Translations under genes and position numbers: made by a program
Part shown: one piece after another, positions 21,723-28,537 of the stretch
How positions within the stretch are numbered: position 1 is the first letter of the stretch
Layout: every line of letters starts with the position of its first letter
The notes under the pieces: generated by a model
What the model was told of the DNA's origin: nothing
Database searches by the model: none
The model's input: the letters and a program-made list of their open reading frames with translations, nothing else
From: Bacteroidia bacterium
Lineage (GTDB): Bacteria > Bacteroidota > Bacteroidia > J057
DNA: 44,132 nucleotides
Assembly: GCA_030731845.1 (NCBI GenBank)
Contig: JANQTF010000062.1
Coordinates: 1-44,132 of the forward strand
Direction: 5' to 3'

Positions 21723-22190
21723 TCATCCATTGATCAGGTCTTTGACCCGTTGCTCTACAATCGCGGTTCGGTATTGTCTGCGGTATTTGAGCGTGTCGTC
21801 AACCTGCTTGAGGGATTGTTGCAATCGCAAAATTTCGGCGCTCTGCCGATCGTATCCCGGATCCTCCTGCATCTTCTCCAATTGTGCCCGCAAGGATCTC
21901 GACTGGGCTTCTAATTGACTCATATTCAGGTCAAATAGCGCATAAAGCAATGACTCAATCTCGATCTTGCCCTGCGCTTTGGCTTGCGAAGGCAGACTTG
22001 AATAGCTCTCCAGCCGAAGCCTGAGGGTCTGCTCCAACTCAGTTTGCTGCTGCTCGAATACTGATACCCGATAAGTCGCACCTTGAGGTACTTCCCGAGT
22101 GTTTGGCGGCTGAGAAACAACCACTTGTGGCAAAAATGCCAGGATAATTACCCAAGATTTCTTGATGAAATGTAGTAAAAGGTAGGCCAT
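21723..22190 (-). CDS. secreted coiled-coil protein, unknown function
   Basis: I do not recognise this protein of about 155 residues. ATG 22190 gives a plausible signal peptide (LLLHFIKKSWVIILAFLPQV) with cleavage near VVVSQ. An alternative longer frame reaches 22283 but has no membrane or signal logic. The mature part is almost wholly helical and likely a coiled coil (FEQQQTELEQTLRLRLESY, SLRAQLEKMQ, LRLQQSLKQVDDTLKYRRQ). It is probably periplasmic. It is convergent with the SH3-domain lipoprotein, with stops 2 bp apart, and divergent from the TonB-dependent receptor gene at 22444. Confidence 0.6.
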   Translation of the reverse strand: MAYLLLHFIKKSWVIILAFLPQVVVSQPPNTREVPQGATYRVSVFEQQQTELEQTLRLRLESYSSLPSQAKAQGKIEIESLLYALFDLNMSQLEAQSRSLRAQLEKMQEDPGYDRQSAEILRLQQSLKQVDDTLKYRRQYRTAIVEQRVKDLING

Positions 22191-22313
22191 AGGATGTATC
22201 GTGATATACTCATTCATGAATCCCTCCTCAACATAGCGAAAATCCCGCTTGATTATTTTATGTGAAGAAGGAAAACCCTTCATAATTGGTCCAAACTTCA
22301 GAGAGGAGATTTG

Positions 22314-22362
22314 TTAACTGTACGTTAATTGATTGTGCCCATATCTTAACATATCGTTAATG
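22314..22362 (+). promoter_or_regulatory. two Pho-box-like TTAAC/TTAAT repeat pairs upstream of the receptor gene
   Basis: TTAAC at 22314 and TTAAT at 22325 are 11 bp apart. A second pair, TTAAC at 22346 and TTAAT at 22357, is also 11 bp apart. The two pairs are 32 bp from each other, so all four hexamers lie on one helix face. Each pair also reads as a 15-bp palindrome, TTAAC-N5-GTTAA. Direct repeats with 11-bp spacing are the architecture of PhoB/PhoP operators in other phyla; the match here is inference. Confidence 0.55.
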
Positions 22363-22394
22363 ATGGCTTACCCATGCGTTTTTTCTGTGGAGCA

Positions 22395-22402
22395 TACCTT
22401 TG
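22395..22402 (+). promoter_or_regulatory. TACCTTTG downstream promoter element
   Basis: This is a perfect TAnnTTTG element, 42 nt before the receptor ATG. No TTTG lies at the expected distance upstream, which would suit an activator-dependent promoter. Confidence 0.5.
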
Positions 22403-22443
22403 CAGTCGATTCCTACATTGGTTGATGTCCATTGGATTTTACT

Positions 22444-25353
22444 ATGAAAGTTTTAAAAAGTTTGGTTCTGTTTTCAGCCCTCCTAGTGCTGACTCTGTCT
22501 TCTCTCCTGGCCCAGAGCAACGGGACCGCCCGAGGAAAAGTCGTTGATGGTACTACAGGTGAGCCTTTGCTCGGTGCTACCGTCCGTTTCCTTCAGGGAG
22601 ATGCAGTAAAAGGGGGGGCCTATACTGATCTCGAAGGCGCCTACTCTGTCTCTCTCCCAGCGGGAACCTATACCCTCATTACTTCCTACATTTCCTACCT
22701 CAATGACACACTCGAGCTTAACGTTGAAGCTGGAAATGTCGTTTTCACCGATCATCTCCTTTTAGAAGAAACCGCAGTCAGGGAAGACCTTGCCGTGGAA
22801 ATTGTTGGAAAAAGAAGCCAGGCTTCTGAGGTCACCTTATTTAATGTCAAAAGAACCTCCGTCAATACAGTGGATGGTGTCACCCTCGATCAGGTAAGAA
22901 GAACCGGCGATGCCAACGTGGCAGCGGCTATGACCCGCGTGGTAGGCGTGACCGTGGAAGGCGGTAAATATGTCTATGTTCGTGGATTGGGTGACCGCTA
23001 CTCCAAGACCCTGCTCAATGGCGCTGAGATCCCTGGACTCGACCCCAACAGGAACACCGTTCAGATGGATTTGTTTCCCTCCAATCTGGTAGATGGAATC
23101 CTCGTTTATAAAAACTTTACACCCAACCTTCCTGGATCTTTTTCCGGTGGCTTGGTTGATGTGAGAACCAAAGACTTTCCCGATCGCTTTTCCCTCCGAG
23201 TTTCAGGTACCTTGGGATACAACACCCAAGCATCTTTGAATGATCAGTTCCTCGCGGATGTAGTCACAACAAGCGACCTCCTTGGGTTTGCTGACCCCTC
23301 GCGGCAGATTCCTTCTTACATCACCAATGACCTCGAAGGAAGGTTGCCAAGAAGACCAGCCACCCGCGCACAATTAGAGAGCCGTGGACCTTTGCTCGAC
23401 TCGGCTTCCAGGGCCTTCACGACCAATATGCTTCCTACTCGTCGTAAATCCGGACTCAACCAAAACTATGAGTTCTCTATCGGGAATCAGCACATGCTGG
23501 GGGGCCGCCCTTTTGGCTACATCGCCAGCCTCACCTTCCGGAGGAATTTCAACTACTATGACGGTGCGGTGAGAAACCAATACAATCTGCCGAGCTCTAC
23601 TTCTTTTAGTCTTGACGGACAATCTCTGCTAAGCGGAGAGCGTGGAGAAGACGAGGCGCTTTGGGGAGGACTGGTGAAGTTGTCCTATAAACCATTCGAT
23701 AAGCACAAATTTTCGGTCAACTTCATGAGAAATCAGGGAAGTGAAACCTCTGGAGAAATTTTCACCGGGAGATATATCGTGTCAGGGGGTGATTTGAACC
23801 TTCAAACCAGAACCACAGGCTACATAGCGCGCGCCATCAACGTGAGCCAGGTGCAAGGCGATCATGCCTTCGGAGAGCTCAAAGCAGATTGGATTGTTTC
23901 CTACTCTCTGGCAAGTCAGTCCGAACCCGATCTTAGGTTTTTTGCCAATGAGTTCATTGTCAACAGTGCTGATGATTCCACCTTCATCATTGACGATGCA
24001 GCCTATGATCGCCCGCTGAGGTTTTATCGGAACCTCGAGGAGACCAATATTGATGCAAAACTGAACTTCAGTCTGCCGATTCCGAGTATTGGGACAGACA
24101 AGAAGTCAACCCTGCGTTTTGGCGGTGCCTATCTCACCAAAAATAGGTCTTTCAATGAGACCAGATATGAAATCTTCCCAGGTCGCAATGCTGCGCCCTA
24201 TGACGGAAATGCATCAGAATATTTTGCTCGGGACAATTTTGGCTACACCATCAATTATGGCCCAACTGGCAACCTGATTTATGAGGAGCGGTTATTTTAT
24301 CAAGACGTTACCCTTCGCCAGAACGTATTTGACGCCACTCAAACCATTACCTCTGGTTATTTGATGGCAGAGTCATTTGTCGGCAAGCGCCTTAAGTTGG
24401 TCTATGGAGCAAGGTATGAAGGTACTGAAATGGTGATCTCACCCGGAGATTCTACCTTGTTTGACCCCATCATTGCTGCTGATTCTACTGCTACTCCTGG
24501 GGTGTTGTCTTTGCAAGATATCTTGCCTTCCTTCAGCGCTATTTATGCTGTCAATGAGAAGGTGAATATTCGCGCCAATTATTCCAGAACCCTGGCCCGA
24601 CCCAACATCATGGAATTCTCTCAGTTTGAGCGACTTCCCTTCATTGGGGGTCCCATTTATCAGGGTAATCCTCAATTGGAGCGCACCTTGATCACCAACC
24701 TCGACCTTCGCTGGGAGTGGTTCTTCTCTTTGTCGGAGATGGTATCGGTCAGTGCCTTTTATAAGTATTTTGAGAATCCGATTGAAGTTGCTCAGAACTT
24801 TGCAACCCAAAACCTGCGCTTTGGCTATGTAAACAGAGAGTCTGCCATCGTGGCTGGAGTTGAGTTTGAGGTGAAAAAGAATCTTGGATTCGTCGGTGCA
24901 GGATTTGATAGGCTCCAAATTGGCGCCAACGCCTCCTTCATCCACTCAGAAACCCCCCTCACCGAAGACGAAATTCTCAACATTCAGTCAATTGATCCTG
25001 ACCGTCCGGACACAAGACCCCTCTTCGGTCAGTCGCCCTATGTGTTCAACACCGAGTTGGCCTACATAGACAGAGAAAAAGCAGGCCTCACAGCCAGTTT
25101 AAACTTCAATGTCTTTGGTCCACGCTTGTTTGCAGTGGGCGGCGCAGCTCCCGATATTTATGAGCAGCCCCGACCAAGCCTGAACTTCTCCATCTCCAAA
25201 GACATTTGGAAAGGCTGGTCGGTAAGATTTCGGGCCAATAATATTCTTAACCCAGAATATAAGTTTACTCAGACTTTCAAAGGGCAAGAATTTTTCTTTA
25301 GAAACAACACGGTTGGCAGAACATTTTCGCTCGGTTTGACATATCAAATATAA
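22444..25353 (+). CDS. TonB-dependent outer-membrane receptor
   Basis: This is an outer-membrane importer of about 969 residues. ATG 22444 gives a signal peptide (SLVLFSALLVLTLSSLLAQ). A carboxypeptidase-regulatory-like domain follows (about 26-105, ARGKVVDGTTGEPLLGATV). The plug domain covers about 115-250, with RRTGDANVAAAMTRVVGVT, VYVRGLGDRYSKTLLNG, and SFSGGLVDVRTKDFPD. The 22-strand barrel ends with the aromatic GRTFSLGLTYQI. It imports a scarce ligand using TonB energy. It does not have a SusD partner. A terminator follows, and the next gene encodes the duplicated T9SS protein with a similar upstream motif; the two are likely co-regulated. Confidence 0.95.
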   Translation: MKVLKSLVLFSALLVLTLSSLLAQSNGTARGKVVDGTTGEPLLGATVRFLQGDAVKGGAYTDLEGAYSVSLPAGTYTLITSYISYLNDTLELNVEAGNVVFTDHLLLEETAVREDLAVEIVGKRSQASEVTLFNVKRTSVNTVDGVTLDQVRRTGDANVAAAMTRVVGVTVEGGKYVYVRGLGDRYSKTLLNGAEIPGLDPNRNTVQMDLFPSNLVDGILVYKNFTPNLPGSFSGGLVDVRTKDFPDRFSLRVSGTLGYNTQASLNDQFLADVVTTSDLLGFADPSRQIPSYITNDLEGRLPRRPATRAQLESRGPLLDSASRAFTTNMLPTRRKSGLNQNYEFSIGNQHMLGGRPFGYIASLTFRRNFNYYDGAVRNQYNLPSSTSFSLDGQSLLSGERGEDEALWGGLVKLSYKPFDKHKFSVNFMRNQGSETSGEIFTGRYIVSGGDLNLQTRTTGYIARAINVSQVQGDHAFGELKADWIVSYSLASQSEPDLRFFANEFIVNSADDSTFIIDDAAYDRPLRFYRNLEETNIDAKLNFSLPIPSIGTDKKSTLRFGGAYLTKNRSFNETRYEIFPGRNAAPYDGNASEYFARDNFGYTINYGPTGNLIYEERLFYQDVTLRQNVFDATQTITSGYLMAESFVGKRLKLVYGARYEGTEMVISPGDSTLFDPIIAADSTATPGVLSLQDILPSFSAIYAVNEKVNIRANYSRTLARPNIMEFSQFERLPFIGGPIYQGNPQLERTLITNLDLRWEWFFSLSEMVSVSAFYKYFENPIEVAQNFATQNLRFGYVNRESAIVAGVEFEVKKNLGFVGAGFDRLQIGANASFIHSETPLTEDEILNIQSIDPDRPDTRPLFGQSPYVFNTELAYIDREKAGLTASLNFNVFGPRLFAVGGAAPDIYEQPRPSLNFSISKDIWKGWSVRFRANNILNPEYKFTQTFKGQEFFFRNNTVGRTFSLGLTYQI

Positions 25354-25381
25354 TCGACGAATTGGAAATTCTGATCTATTG

Positions 25382-25424
25382 AAACCCCAGGAAGGCTTAA
25401 AATCCCTTCCTGGGGTTTGTTTTT
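25382..25424 (+). terminator. strong terminator after the receptor gene
   Basis: A perfect 14-bp stem (AAACCCCAGGAAGG / CCTTCCTGGGGTTT, 25382-25395 and 25405-25418) with a 9-nt loop is followed by a T-rich tail. It implies that the next gene has its own promoter. Confidence 0.9.
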
Positions 25425-25450
25425 GCCCTTTTGGGAGACTAATTCTAAAC

Positions 25451-25495
25451 TTCACTTCATATTAATATTGGCTTAATAAGGCGCCTTTACCTTCG
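25451..25495 (+). promoter_or_regulatory. 11-bp-spaced TTMAY repeats and promoter element upstream of the beta-helix gene
   Basis: TTCAC at 25451, TTAAT at 25462 and TTAAT at 25473 are spaced exactly 11 bp apart. A TACCTTCG element (25488-25495) follows the last repeat by 10 bp, the usual distance from a Pho-type operator to the downstream promoter box. The ATG is 42 nt further on. Compare the TTAAY pairs and TACCTTTG before the receptor gene. Confidence 0.5.
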
Positions 25496-25537: not shown

Positions 25538-28537
25538 ATGAAAAGAATTCTTTTTACCCTCACATTCTTGTTGGCCTTTGGAATGGTTGCCGTGTTCGGA
25601 CAGGACACAATCATGGTAGCCGGTACCACAGGTACAACAACCTGGACCAAAAATAATGTGTACTTGCTCAAAGGCTATGTACGTGTTGACAACGGAGAAA
25701 CCCTCACCATTCAGGAAGGAACCATCGTTCTGGCTGATACAGGTGCTCTCGAAAATGCTTCTGCATTGATCGTCGAGAGAAATGGTAAAATTTTTGCAAA
25801 TGGCACACAAGCTGAGCCGATTGTGTTTACCTCCCTTCTCGATAACACCAATGACCCTAATGACCTGCTCGATAAGCAAGCCATTGGTCTTTGGGGAGGA
25901 GTTATTATTTGTGGCGATGCATCTACCAATATCGCCAACAACGGATCTGCTCAGGTCGAAGGAATTCCTTCTACGCTTCCTGCGAGCGTAGGAACCTACG
26001 GCGGATCGACTGATGACGACGATAGCGGAGTGCTTCGCTATGTGACCATCCGTCACACGGGTGTTGCCCTTGCATCCAACAACGAAATCCAAGGTCTGAC
26101 CCTCGCTGGTGTTGGTAACAGAACCGTCATCGAAAATATTGAGTCCTATGCCTCCGCTGATGATGGTATCGAGATTTTTGGAGGAACTGTTAACCTCAAG
26201 TACATTTCTATCGCTTTCTTCGAAGACGATGGTCTCGATTATGATCAAGGTTGGAGAGGAAGTGTTCAGTACCTTTTTGTTCTCCAGGCCGCTGGCTTTG
26301 GTGATCGCCTTGGTGAGTGGGATGGTGCCGACACGCCAGAAGATGGTGCTCCTTTCGGAATTCCTACCATTTACAATGCTACCTTCATCGGAAGCCTTCC
26401 TGCTGGAACTGACAAGCGTACCCTTACCTTCCGTGCCAATGGCGGTGGTAAAGTGTACAACTCCATCTTCACAGAGCAAAATAGAGGCGTTGACATTGAG
26501 ATCAAGTCCGATTCCCTCATTTCTGAGAATTCTTATGACCGCTTCGTAGCTGGTGATCTTGATCTTACCAACAACATTTTCTGGAACATTGCTGGAAATA
26601 ACGCCAACAATATGTTCCGCATTTCCCCGATCCCAAAGGGTTGGGTGGACTCAGCCACAGTTGTTAGTGCTGCGGTAGCAGACATTCAGTCCTACTTCCC
26701 CGCCAACAACTCTATCAGCGATCCAGCTATCTTCGGATTGTCTTATGTAGATGATGGAATGCTCGACCCACGCTTTGGCGCTGCTGAAGTAACTCAAAAC
26801 CTAAAGCCTTCTACCGGCTTTTTTGATAATCCTGGATACAAAGGTGCTTTTGGCCCTACTCAGGCTGGACTTTGGATTAAAGGATGGACGGCGCTTGATC
26901 ACTATGGCTACCTTCCTACCTTCTCCTCTGACACAATCCTCGTAACCGGAACCACCGGAAATGCTACCTGGACAAACGACAAGGTGTATTTGCTGAAAGG
27001 ATACGTTCGCGTTGACAACGGAGACACCCTGCGCATCGCAGCTGGAACGGTTGTCTTGGCTGATACAGGTTCTTTGGAAAATGCTTCTGCGTTGATCATC
27101 GAGCGCGATGGCTACATCGAAGCCCTCGGTACTGAGCAAGATCCTATCATCTTCACTTCTCTGCTCGATAACACTACAGATCCAAACGATTTGCTCGACA
27201 AACAAGCGATCGGTCTTTGGGGTGGCGTAATCGTCTGTGGAGATGCCTCTACTAACATTGCCAACAACGGTTCGGCTCAAGTGGAAGGGATTCCTTCTAA
27301 CCTGCCTGCCACTGTAGGTACTTATGGAGGGAATGAGGATACAGATAATAGCGGAATTCTGCGCTACGTGTCTATTCGCCACACAGGGATTGCTTTGGCT
27401 TCCAACAACGAAATTCAAGGTCTCACCCTTGCTGGTGTAGGGAATGCAACTGTCGTTGAGCACATCGAATCCTATGCTTCTGCTGATGACGGTATCGAGA
27501 TCTTCGGAGGAACCGTGAACCTGAAGTATATCACGATCTCTTTCTTTGAAGACGACGGTCTCGACTATGACCAAGGTTGGAGAGGAAACGTACAGCACCT
27601 TTTCGTTCTCCAGGCTGCTGGCTTTGGTGACCGCATGGGTGAGTGGGATGGTGCAGATACACCAGAAGATGGTGCTCCTTTCGGCATTCCTACCATCTAC
27701 AACGCTACCTTCATCGGAAGCAAGCCTGCCGGAACAGATAAGAGAATGCTTACTTTCCGCGCCAATGGTGGTGGTAAAGTGTACAACTCTATCCTGATCG
27801 AGCAAAACAGAGGAATTGATGTTGAAATCAAATCTGATTCTCTCATCTCACAGAATTCTTATGACCGATTTGTAGCTGGTGATCTTGACCTCACCAACAA
27901 CATTTTCTGGAATATTGCCAGCAACACTGCTGCTTCTGCCTTCCGTATCTCTCCGATCCCAAAAGGGTGGGTTGACTCAGCTACCATTGTAAGTGCTGCG
28001 ATCACCAATTTCCAGACCTACATGGGTAACAACAACCTGATCACTGATCCAAAGATCCAAGGCCTTTCTTACATCGACGACAACGGTCTTGACCCACGCT
28101 TTGCTGCTTTTGAAGTGGTAGATGGTGTTAAGACTCCTGTTGGTGCTTTCTTCACCCCTACTACTTACAAAGGTGCTTTCGGCCTTACTGCCGATGGCCT
28201 TTGGGTAAAAGGGTGGACTGCTCTCGACCACTACGGGTATCTTGTAGCCAACCCTGGTAACGTGACAGGAATCAACAACGAAGAGTTGATCTCTACTGTG
28301 AATGTATATCCAAACCCTTCTACTGGAGTCTTCACCGTAACGGCTCAGGATCTTGACGTGGCGCAAGCTGCTACCATCACTGTCCTCAACGCCATGGGCC
28401 AGGTCGTATTCACCAAAGAAGTTCGTGGAAGCGAGCTTCGCACTGACATTGACCTTTCCAAAATGCCACAGGGCATGTATGTTCTTTCTATCAAAAATGG
28501 AAATAAAGTTTCCGTAGGAAAGATCATCAAAGAGTAA
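25538..28537 (+). CDS. T9SS type A secreted protein with two beta-helix-like halves
   Basis: This 999-residue protein has a clear signal peptide (ILFTLTFLLAFGMVAVFGQ). Two near-identical modules follow, each of about 440 residues (nt 25604-26929 and 26930-about 28245). Both contain LLDKQAIGLWGGVI, SYASADDGIEIFGGTVNLKY, FFEDDGLDYDQGWRG and NSYDRFVAGDLDLTNNIFWN. The turn-rich pattern (NIESYASADDGIEIFGG, NNIFWN) suggests a right-handed beta-helix. The C-terminus is a type A T9SS sorting domain (VNVYPNPSTGVFTVTA to the end, KMPQGMYVLSIKNG), so it is exported and attached to the surface or released. No catalytic residues are obvious. It follows the receptor gene and shares its upstream repeats, so I infer that it binds the same ligand. 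Confidence 0.85.
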   Translation: MKRILFTLTFLLAFGMVAVFGQDTIMVAGTTGTTTWTKNNVYLLKGYVRVDNGETLTIQEGTIVLADTGALENASALIVERNGKIFANGTQAEPIVFTSLLDNTNDPNDLLDKQAIGLWGGVIICGDASTNIANNGSAQVEGIPSTLPASVGTYGGSTDDDDSGVLRYVTIRHTGVALASNNEIQGLTLAGVGNRTVIENIESYASADDGIEIFGGTVNLKYISIAFFEDDGLDYDQGWRGSVQYLFVLQAAGFGDRLGEWDGADTPEDGAPFGIPTIYNATFIGSLPAGTDKRTLTFRANGGGKVYNSIFTEQNRGVDIEIKSDSLISENSYDRFVAGDLDLTNNIFWNIAGNNANNMFRISPIPKGWVDSATVVSAAVADIQSYFPANNSISDPAIFGLSYVDDGMLDPRFGAAEVTQNLKPSTGFFDNPGYKGAFGPTQAGLWIKGWTALDHYGYLPTFSSDTILVTGTTGNATWTNDKVYLLKGYVRVDNGDTLRIAAGTVVLADTGSLENASALIIERDGYIEALGTEQDPIIFTSLLDNTTDPNDLLDKQAIGLWGGVIVCGDASTNIANNGSAQVEGIPSNLPATVGTYGGNEDTDNSGILRYVSIRHTGIALASNNEIQGLTLAGVGNATVVEHIESYASADDGIEIFGGTVNLKYITISFFEDDGLDYDQGWRGNVQHLFVLQAAGFGDRMGEWDGADTPEDGAPFGIPTIYNATFIGSKPAGTDKRMLTFRANGGGKVYNSILIEQNRGIDVEIKSDSLISQNSYDRFVAGDLDLTNNIFWNIASNTAASAFRISPIPKGWVDSATIVSAAITNFQTYMGNNNLITDPKIQGLSYIDDNGLDPRFAAFEVVDGVKTPVGAFFTPTTYKGAFGLTADGLWVKGWTALDHYGYLVANPGNVTGINNEELISTVNVYPNPSTGVFTVTAQDLDVAQAATITVLNAMGQVVFTKEVRGSELRTDIDLSKMPQGMYVLSIKNGNKVSVGKIIKE

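Follow-up and report, generated by a model that had tools for sequence, protein, structure and literature searches.

The window, that is, the whole 44,132-nucleotide stretch of Bacteroidia DNA (contig JANQTF010000062.1) that was analysed, contains two neighbouring genes on the forward strand, encoding a TonB-dependent receptor and a secreted beta-helix protein, each of which is preceded by short direct repeats and a promoter element. The relevant features are listed below in window coordinates.

22314-22329, + strand: putative distal operator of the receptor gene, the pair TTAAC (22314) and TTAAT (22325), an 11-bp direct repeat
22346-22372, + strand: putative proximal operator of the receptor gene, TTAAC (22346), TTAAT (22357) and a degenerate TTACC (22368), recognised from the unit positions and from rank 3 in the profile search described below
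22395-22402, + strand: TACCTTTG, predicted -7 element (TAnnTTTG) of the receptor gene, 33 bp past the last exact TTAAT (10+2×11+1)
22444-25353, + strand: TonB-dependent receptor of 969 aa with an N-terminal carboxypeptidase-regulatory-like domain (Pfam PF13715 and PF07715, Plug)
25382-25418 (25382-25424 with the T-run), + strand: predicted terminator, a 14-bp inverted repeat without mismatches and, after it, GTTTTTG
25451-25477, + strand: putative operator of the beta-helix gene, TTCAC (25451), TTAAT (25462) and TTAAT (25473) at exact 11-bp spacing, rank 1 in the profile search
25488-25495, + strand: TACCTTCG, predicted -7 element of the beta-helix gene, with one mismatch to TAnnTTTG, exactly 10 bp past the last unit
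25538-28537, + strand: secreted beta-helix protein of 999 aa, ElpS/FII-like, with a C-terminal T9SS sorting domain (domain searches and AlphaFold2)

The best NCBIfam model for the receptor was TIGR01782, below its cut-off. The beta-helix protein is the product of an internal tandem duplication, residues 20-457 and 462-900 being 80% identical, and its closest full-length relative (genome G002, locus L100) likewise comprises two copies. AlphaFold2, applied to one copy of the domain, returned a confident beta-helix (mean pLDDT 90, pTM 0.90). A fold search with that model yielded weak, generic matches to pectate-lyase-like beta-helices, none below an E value of 0.001; a PDB sequence search with the beta-helix profile gave no match, and no Pfam family covers the domain. 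Because the fold matches are weak and generic, no enzymatic activity is claimed for the protein. The inverted repeat between the two genes is likely to be a terminator, which would fit a separate transcription unit and operator for each gene. The receptor's intergenic region is common to a divergent ORF of 186 aa without a Pfam match (21723-22283). This ORF may be co-regulated, since the near-palindromic 22314 pair reads as a repeat on the strand of the ORF as well, with a minus-strand match at 22313-22328.

The first-pass annotation had described TTAAY-type units in 11-bp steps within each group before the two genes, and every one of those units was recovered at its position and spacing. To these can be added the TTACC at 22368, a third, degenerate unit in phase with those at 22346 and 22357. 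The register of the 22314 pair relative to the 22346 pair is off by one base, the distance from 22325 to 22346 being 21 rather than 22 bp. The exact pattern TTAAY-N6-TTAAY occurs four times in the window, at three sites (one match is the minus strand of the same site), compared with 0.25 matches expected from dinucleotide shuffles, none of 100 of which reached four. It is not generally common in the genome, as the entire 5.26-Mb assembly contains 13 matches, fewer than the 32 found for the reversed control pattern. With four matches (three sites) in a 3.2-kb stretch and 13 genome-wide, the share that falls here is far above what the size of the stretch would predict.

The -7 promoter element of the Bacteroidota is TAnnTTTG. 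The first-pass annotation had also noted, without naming it, an element after each repeat group; these elements are indeed present, and we take TACCTTTG and TACCTTCG to be this -7 box. The idea that they form part of the operator was dropped accordingly. In promoters of relatives, the distance from the last exact unit to TAnnTTTG is mostly 10, 21, 32, 43 or 54 bp; a distance of 10+11n is matched to within one base in 26 of 30 (p=1.7e-11 under uniform phase). An alignment of the family promoters anchored at the -7 box shows four TTAAY units in phase, at -48, -37, -26 and -15. The window promoters share this register, exactly for the beta-helix gene (10 bp) and with one base of deviation from 10+2×11 for the receptor gene (33 bp). 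A profile was then built from 21 phased promoters, none of them from the window, and run over the whole of the organism's own genome. The beta-helix promoter ranked first and the receptor promoter third. The E value of the top match was a modest 0.57, so the evidence from the profile lies in the ranks.

Relatives of the beta-helix gene were collected from named genomes (79 loci) and from further genomes of the same family, giving 87 loci in all, with genes called by a simple longest-ORF procedure. The beta-helix gene and a TonB receptor gene adjoin on the same strand in 70 pairings over these 87 loci, with the beta-helix gene first in 43 and the receptor gene first in 27. A gene for a PhoB-like regulator is a direct neighbour at 19 of the 87 loci, in orders such as phoB-receptor-beta-helix (G010, L092) or beta-helix-phoB-receptor (G004, L093). 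The regions upstream of these genes were scanned for pairs of TTAAY units at every lag from 5 to 25. For the beta-helix genes, 37 pairs were found at lag 11 and 17 at lag 22, the next highest count being 10; for the receptors the counts were 21 and 10 (4 or fewer at other lags), and for the neighbouring PhoB-like regulators 28 and 8 (5 or fewer at others). An exact pair lies upstream of 32 of 69 beta-helix genes, 17 of 66 receptor genes and 26 of 36 regulator genes, compared with 16 of 449 unrelated genes (4%), and dinucleotide shuffles of the 69 beta-helix promoters produced a pair in about 1.4. It is apparent that the repeat pattern is strongly enriched at the orthologous promoters, with peaks at lags 11 and 22; the enrichment p-values are approximate, because the loci are partly related.

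Two further observations were made at these loci. A small CarboxypepD_reg-like protein of about 105-123 aa, also secreted, is encoded near PhoB/beta-helix clusters (L131, 14842-15192; L176, 16394-16720; and 13 similar). Repeats are present in 11 of its 15 promoters, a higher rate than for the beta-helix/receptor pair, and the protein is likely to be an unrecognised member of the Pho regulon. The beta-helix gene, mostly with a receptor gene, was also found well outside the Bacteroidota, in MAGs labelled Latescibacterota, KSB1, Calditrichaeota and Zixiibacteriota (L127, L128, L133, L167, L168, L174 and L190).

Several of the repeat-bearing control genes proved to be phosphate genes, namely those for PHO4, Na/Pi cotransporters with PhoU domains and polyphosphate kinase. 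In the relatives, exact pairs precede 6 of 10 PHO4 genes, both Na/Pi genes and the single ppk gene. The pstSCAB operon of a genome of the same family (G004) has three TTAAT units at 11 bp, and a similar 11-bp array precedes a phoB gene of the family that is followed by a histidine kinase gene. In an independent set of 30 pstS genes from across the class, the promoters contained 11 pairs at lag 11, five at lag 22 and two or fewer elsewhere, and the matched coding stretches that served as a control contained no pair. Most PBP_like_2 genes of the family are without repeats, probably because many of them are not PstS. A triple-repeat pattern applied to 13 family genomes gave counts only modestly above those of the reversed control, with matches that include pstS and phoB; it was too noisy to be kept as a stand-alone test. 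In the organism's own genome, the Na/Pi symporter gene has a degenerate array (TTACT/TTAAC/ATAAC) upstream, a distant PstS-like gene has no repeats upstream, and searches of the 93.8%-complete assembly for PHO4 and PhoU found neither. The expectation that the repeats would also mark known Pho genes is thus borne out in relatives, at pstS, PHO4, Na/Pi, polyphosphate kinase and phoB genes, but only weakly in this genome.

One regulator of the PhoB clade was found in the organism's own genome, at L094:5653-6402, with Response_reg and Trans_reg_C domains. It is 55% identical to the cluster-associated regulator of G004, and in a tree it groups with PhoB-clade regulators of other genomes, apart from more distant OmpR-family paralogues. 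The best NCBIfam model for it and for two cluster-associated regulators is PhoB, in each case below the curated cut-off; the best models for the partner kinases in relatives are PnpS and PhoR. No kinase gene is adjacent to the L094 candidate, and only degenerate repeats lie upstream of it. Directly downstream, where a PhoR kinase would be expected, is a gene for a stand-alone receiver-domain protein (L094, 5137-5514).

The operator of Bacillus subtilis PhoP consists of TTAACA repeats, with the same core and period as the repeats in the window. The traits of a PHO box are found here as well: direct repeats with an 11-bp period lie upstream of the promoter, they keep a fixed register, with a gap of about 10 bp to the -10/-7 element downstream, the genome encodes a PhoB-type regulator (L094:5653-6402), and in relatives the element occurs at bona fide phosphate genes (pstS, phoB and Pi transporters). 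In the PHO box of Escherichia coli, direct repeat units of 11 nt lie upstream of the -10 element, at a distance of 10 bp (PMC4415409, PMC1906773). Since the head-to-tail 11-bp units, the gap of about 10 bp before the core promoter element and the OmpR family of the regulator (PhoB in E. coli, putatively PhoB here) all correspond, the layout can be considered the same; the unit and the promoter element differ, being CTGTCAT-like in E. coli and TTAAY with the Bacteroidota -7 TAnnTTTG here, where arrays often have three or four units. The cyanobacterial SphR box, CTTAACCT, with at least three units and a 3-bp linker, likewise repeats every 11 bp and has a nearly identical core, cTTAAC (PMC1906773), but differs in phylum, regulator and promoter type.

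Counterparts of the gene pair have been described in two organisms. In Caulobacter, ElpS (Cc0170) is a secreted lipoprotein that is made on phosphate starvation and has a TonB receptor, Cc0171, as its partner (PMC2996285). In Flavobacterium johnsoniae, Fjoh_0545 (a TBDT) and Fjoh_0546 (FII) belong to the phoBR cluster and are strongly induced by Pi depletion, and the proteins FI-FIII are reported as related to Caulobacter ElpS (PMC8115612). The window protein combines a beta-helix fold, secretion and an adjacent TonB receptor, and the window pair appears to correspond to both systems, being matched to them by pairing, fold and the published descriptions rather than by sequence. The likeness to Caulobacter lies at the family level, in a secreted protein paired with a TonB receptor; there, ElpS is a T2SS-released lipoprotein and Cc0171 is reported to be constitutively expressed (PMC2996285), whereas the window protein has a T9SS sorting domain and a tandem duplication. 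F. johnsoniae has a like gene pair beside phoBR, whereas the window pair has no adjacent phoB; no description of an operator was found in PMC8115612. The PhoB of Bacteroides fragilis has been studied genetically and binds the pstC promoter, and the description of that binding defines no box (PMC3547664).

The first-pass suggestion of an operator for an OmpR/PhoB-family regulator, perhaps responsive to phosphate, therefore gains support from the enrichment at orthologues and from the phosphate genes of relatives, the regulator itself being putative. Judging from these sequence comparisons, the repeats very probably form a Pho box of the Bacteroidota type, to which PhoB would be recruited to switch on both genes. 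PhoB is preferred as the regulator on account of the genes next to it in relatives, the occurrence of the repeats at phosphate genes and the expression results for F. johnsoniae. According to this model, phosphate shortage would lead a PhoR-like kinase to phosphorylate a PhoB-like regulator of the OmpR family, for which L094:5653-6402 is the candidate, and PhoB would bind head-to-tail along one face of the DNA, to TTAAY units that recur at 11-bp intervals. As the promoter-nearest unit would end about 10 bp upstream of TAnnTTTG, we propose that PhoB occupies the -33 region, from which it would recruit RNA polymerase, activating rather than repressing transcription under phosphate limitation. 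Separate operators would drive the two genes, and their products, the TonB-dependent receptor in the outer membrane and the ElpS-like beta-helix protein that is secreted, may jointly scavenge phosphorus from organic or polymeric sources.

An alternative, which we consider unlikely, is that the repeats are operators of an RprY-type OmpR-family regulator (possibly the 'PhoP' of Riemerella anatipestifer) and that the trigger is envelope or redox stress. TTAAC repeats at 11 bp do precede RprX/RprY-like pairs and divergent genes in G009 (L250, 9562-9573) and in the organism's own genome (L248, 7790), these gene names having been assigned by eye rather than by a model, as well as a similar kinase/secreted-protein pair (L247, 2196); the RprXY-like genes with such repeats are not phosphate genes. 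DAP-seq of R. anatipestifer PhoP gave a motif with the core TTTAACA and binding to a receptor promoter (PMC9603813). Together with the repeats at the RprXY-like genes, this motif suggests that the TTAAY unit may mark OmpR-family operators generally. Against an RprY-type regulator, PhoB is the best-scoring model for the regulators encoded at L094 and L163, with RprY trailing by about 75 bits or more, the same array precedes pstS, PHO4, Na/Pi and ppk genes, and the F. johnsoniae orthologues respond to phosphate (PMC8115612). The position of the repeats before the RprX/RprY-like genes themselves suggests autoregulation through an operator close to the Pho box. It is much less probable still that the TTAAY array is bound by PhoB as well as by a paralogue and so combines phosphate with another stress signal: PhoB-type and RprY-type promoters both have TTAAY at 11 bp and many relatives have two PhoB-clade regulators, but only one was found in the genome in question, and flanking bases may discriminate between the two. 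Finally, an origin by chance in AT-rich promoter DNA, where TTAA counts do rise in intergenic regions and with which the modest profile E value might agree, is next to negligible. For the family as a whole, the lag and phase tests refute it: the shuffle expectations are far below the observed counts, the excess appears at lags 11 and 22 only, and it keeps phase with the -7 box.

Pi-responsive genes have been mapped in Flavobacterium (PMC8115612). A search of the open-access literature, which takes in few of the subscription journals, turned up no Pho-box consensus for the Bacteroidota, so the novelty of a consensus is provisional. With the Pho-box reading extended to the whole group, the balance tips slightly towards a view in which the Bacteroidota and near relatives would have as their ancestral Pho box an array of TTAAY units at 11-bp intervals that stops 10 bp short of TAnnTTTG, and in which the ElpS-like beta-helix protein and its receptor would be a core Pho-controlled system there for scavenging phosphorus at the outer membrane. 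The grammar would put an uncharacterised beta-helix/receptor pair into the Pho regulon. It would also provide a simple rule for recognising phosphate-response genes, permitting sequence-based prediction of Pho regulons in unculturable members of the Bacteroidota, which are major recyclers of phosphorus in soil, water and the gut.
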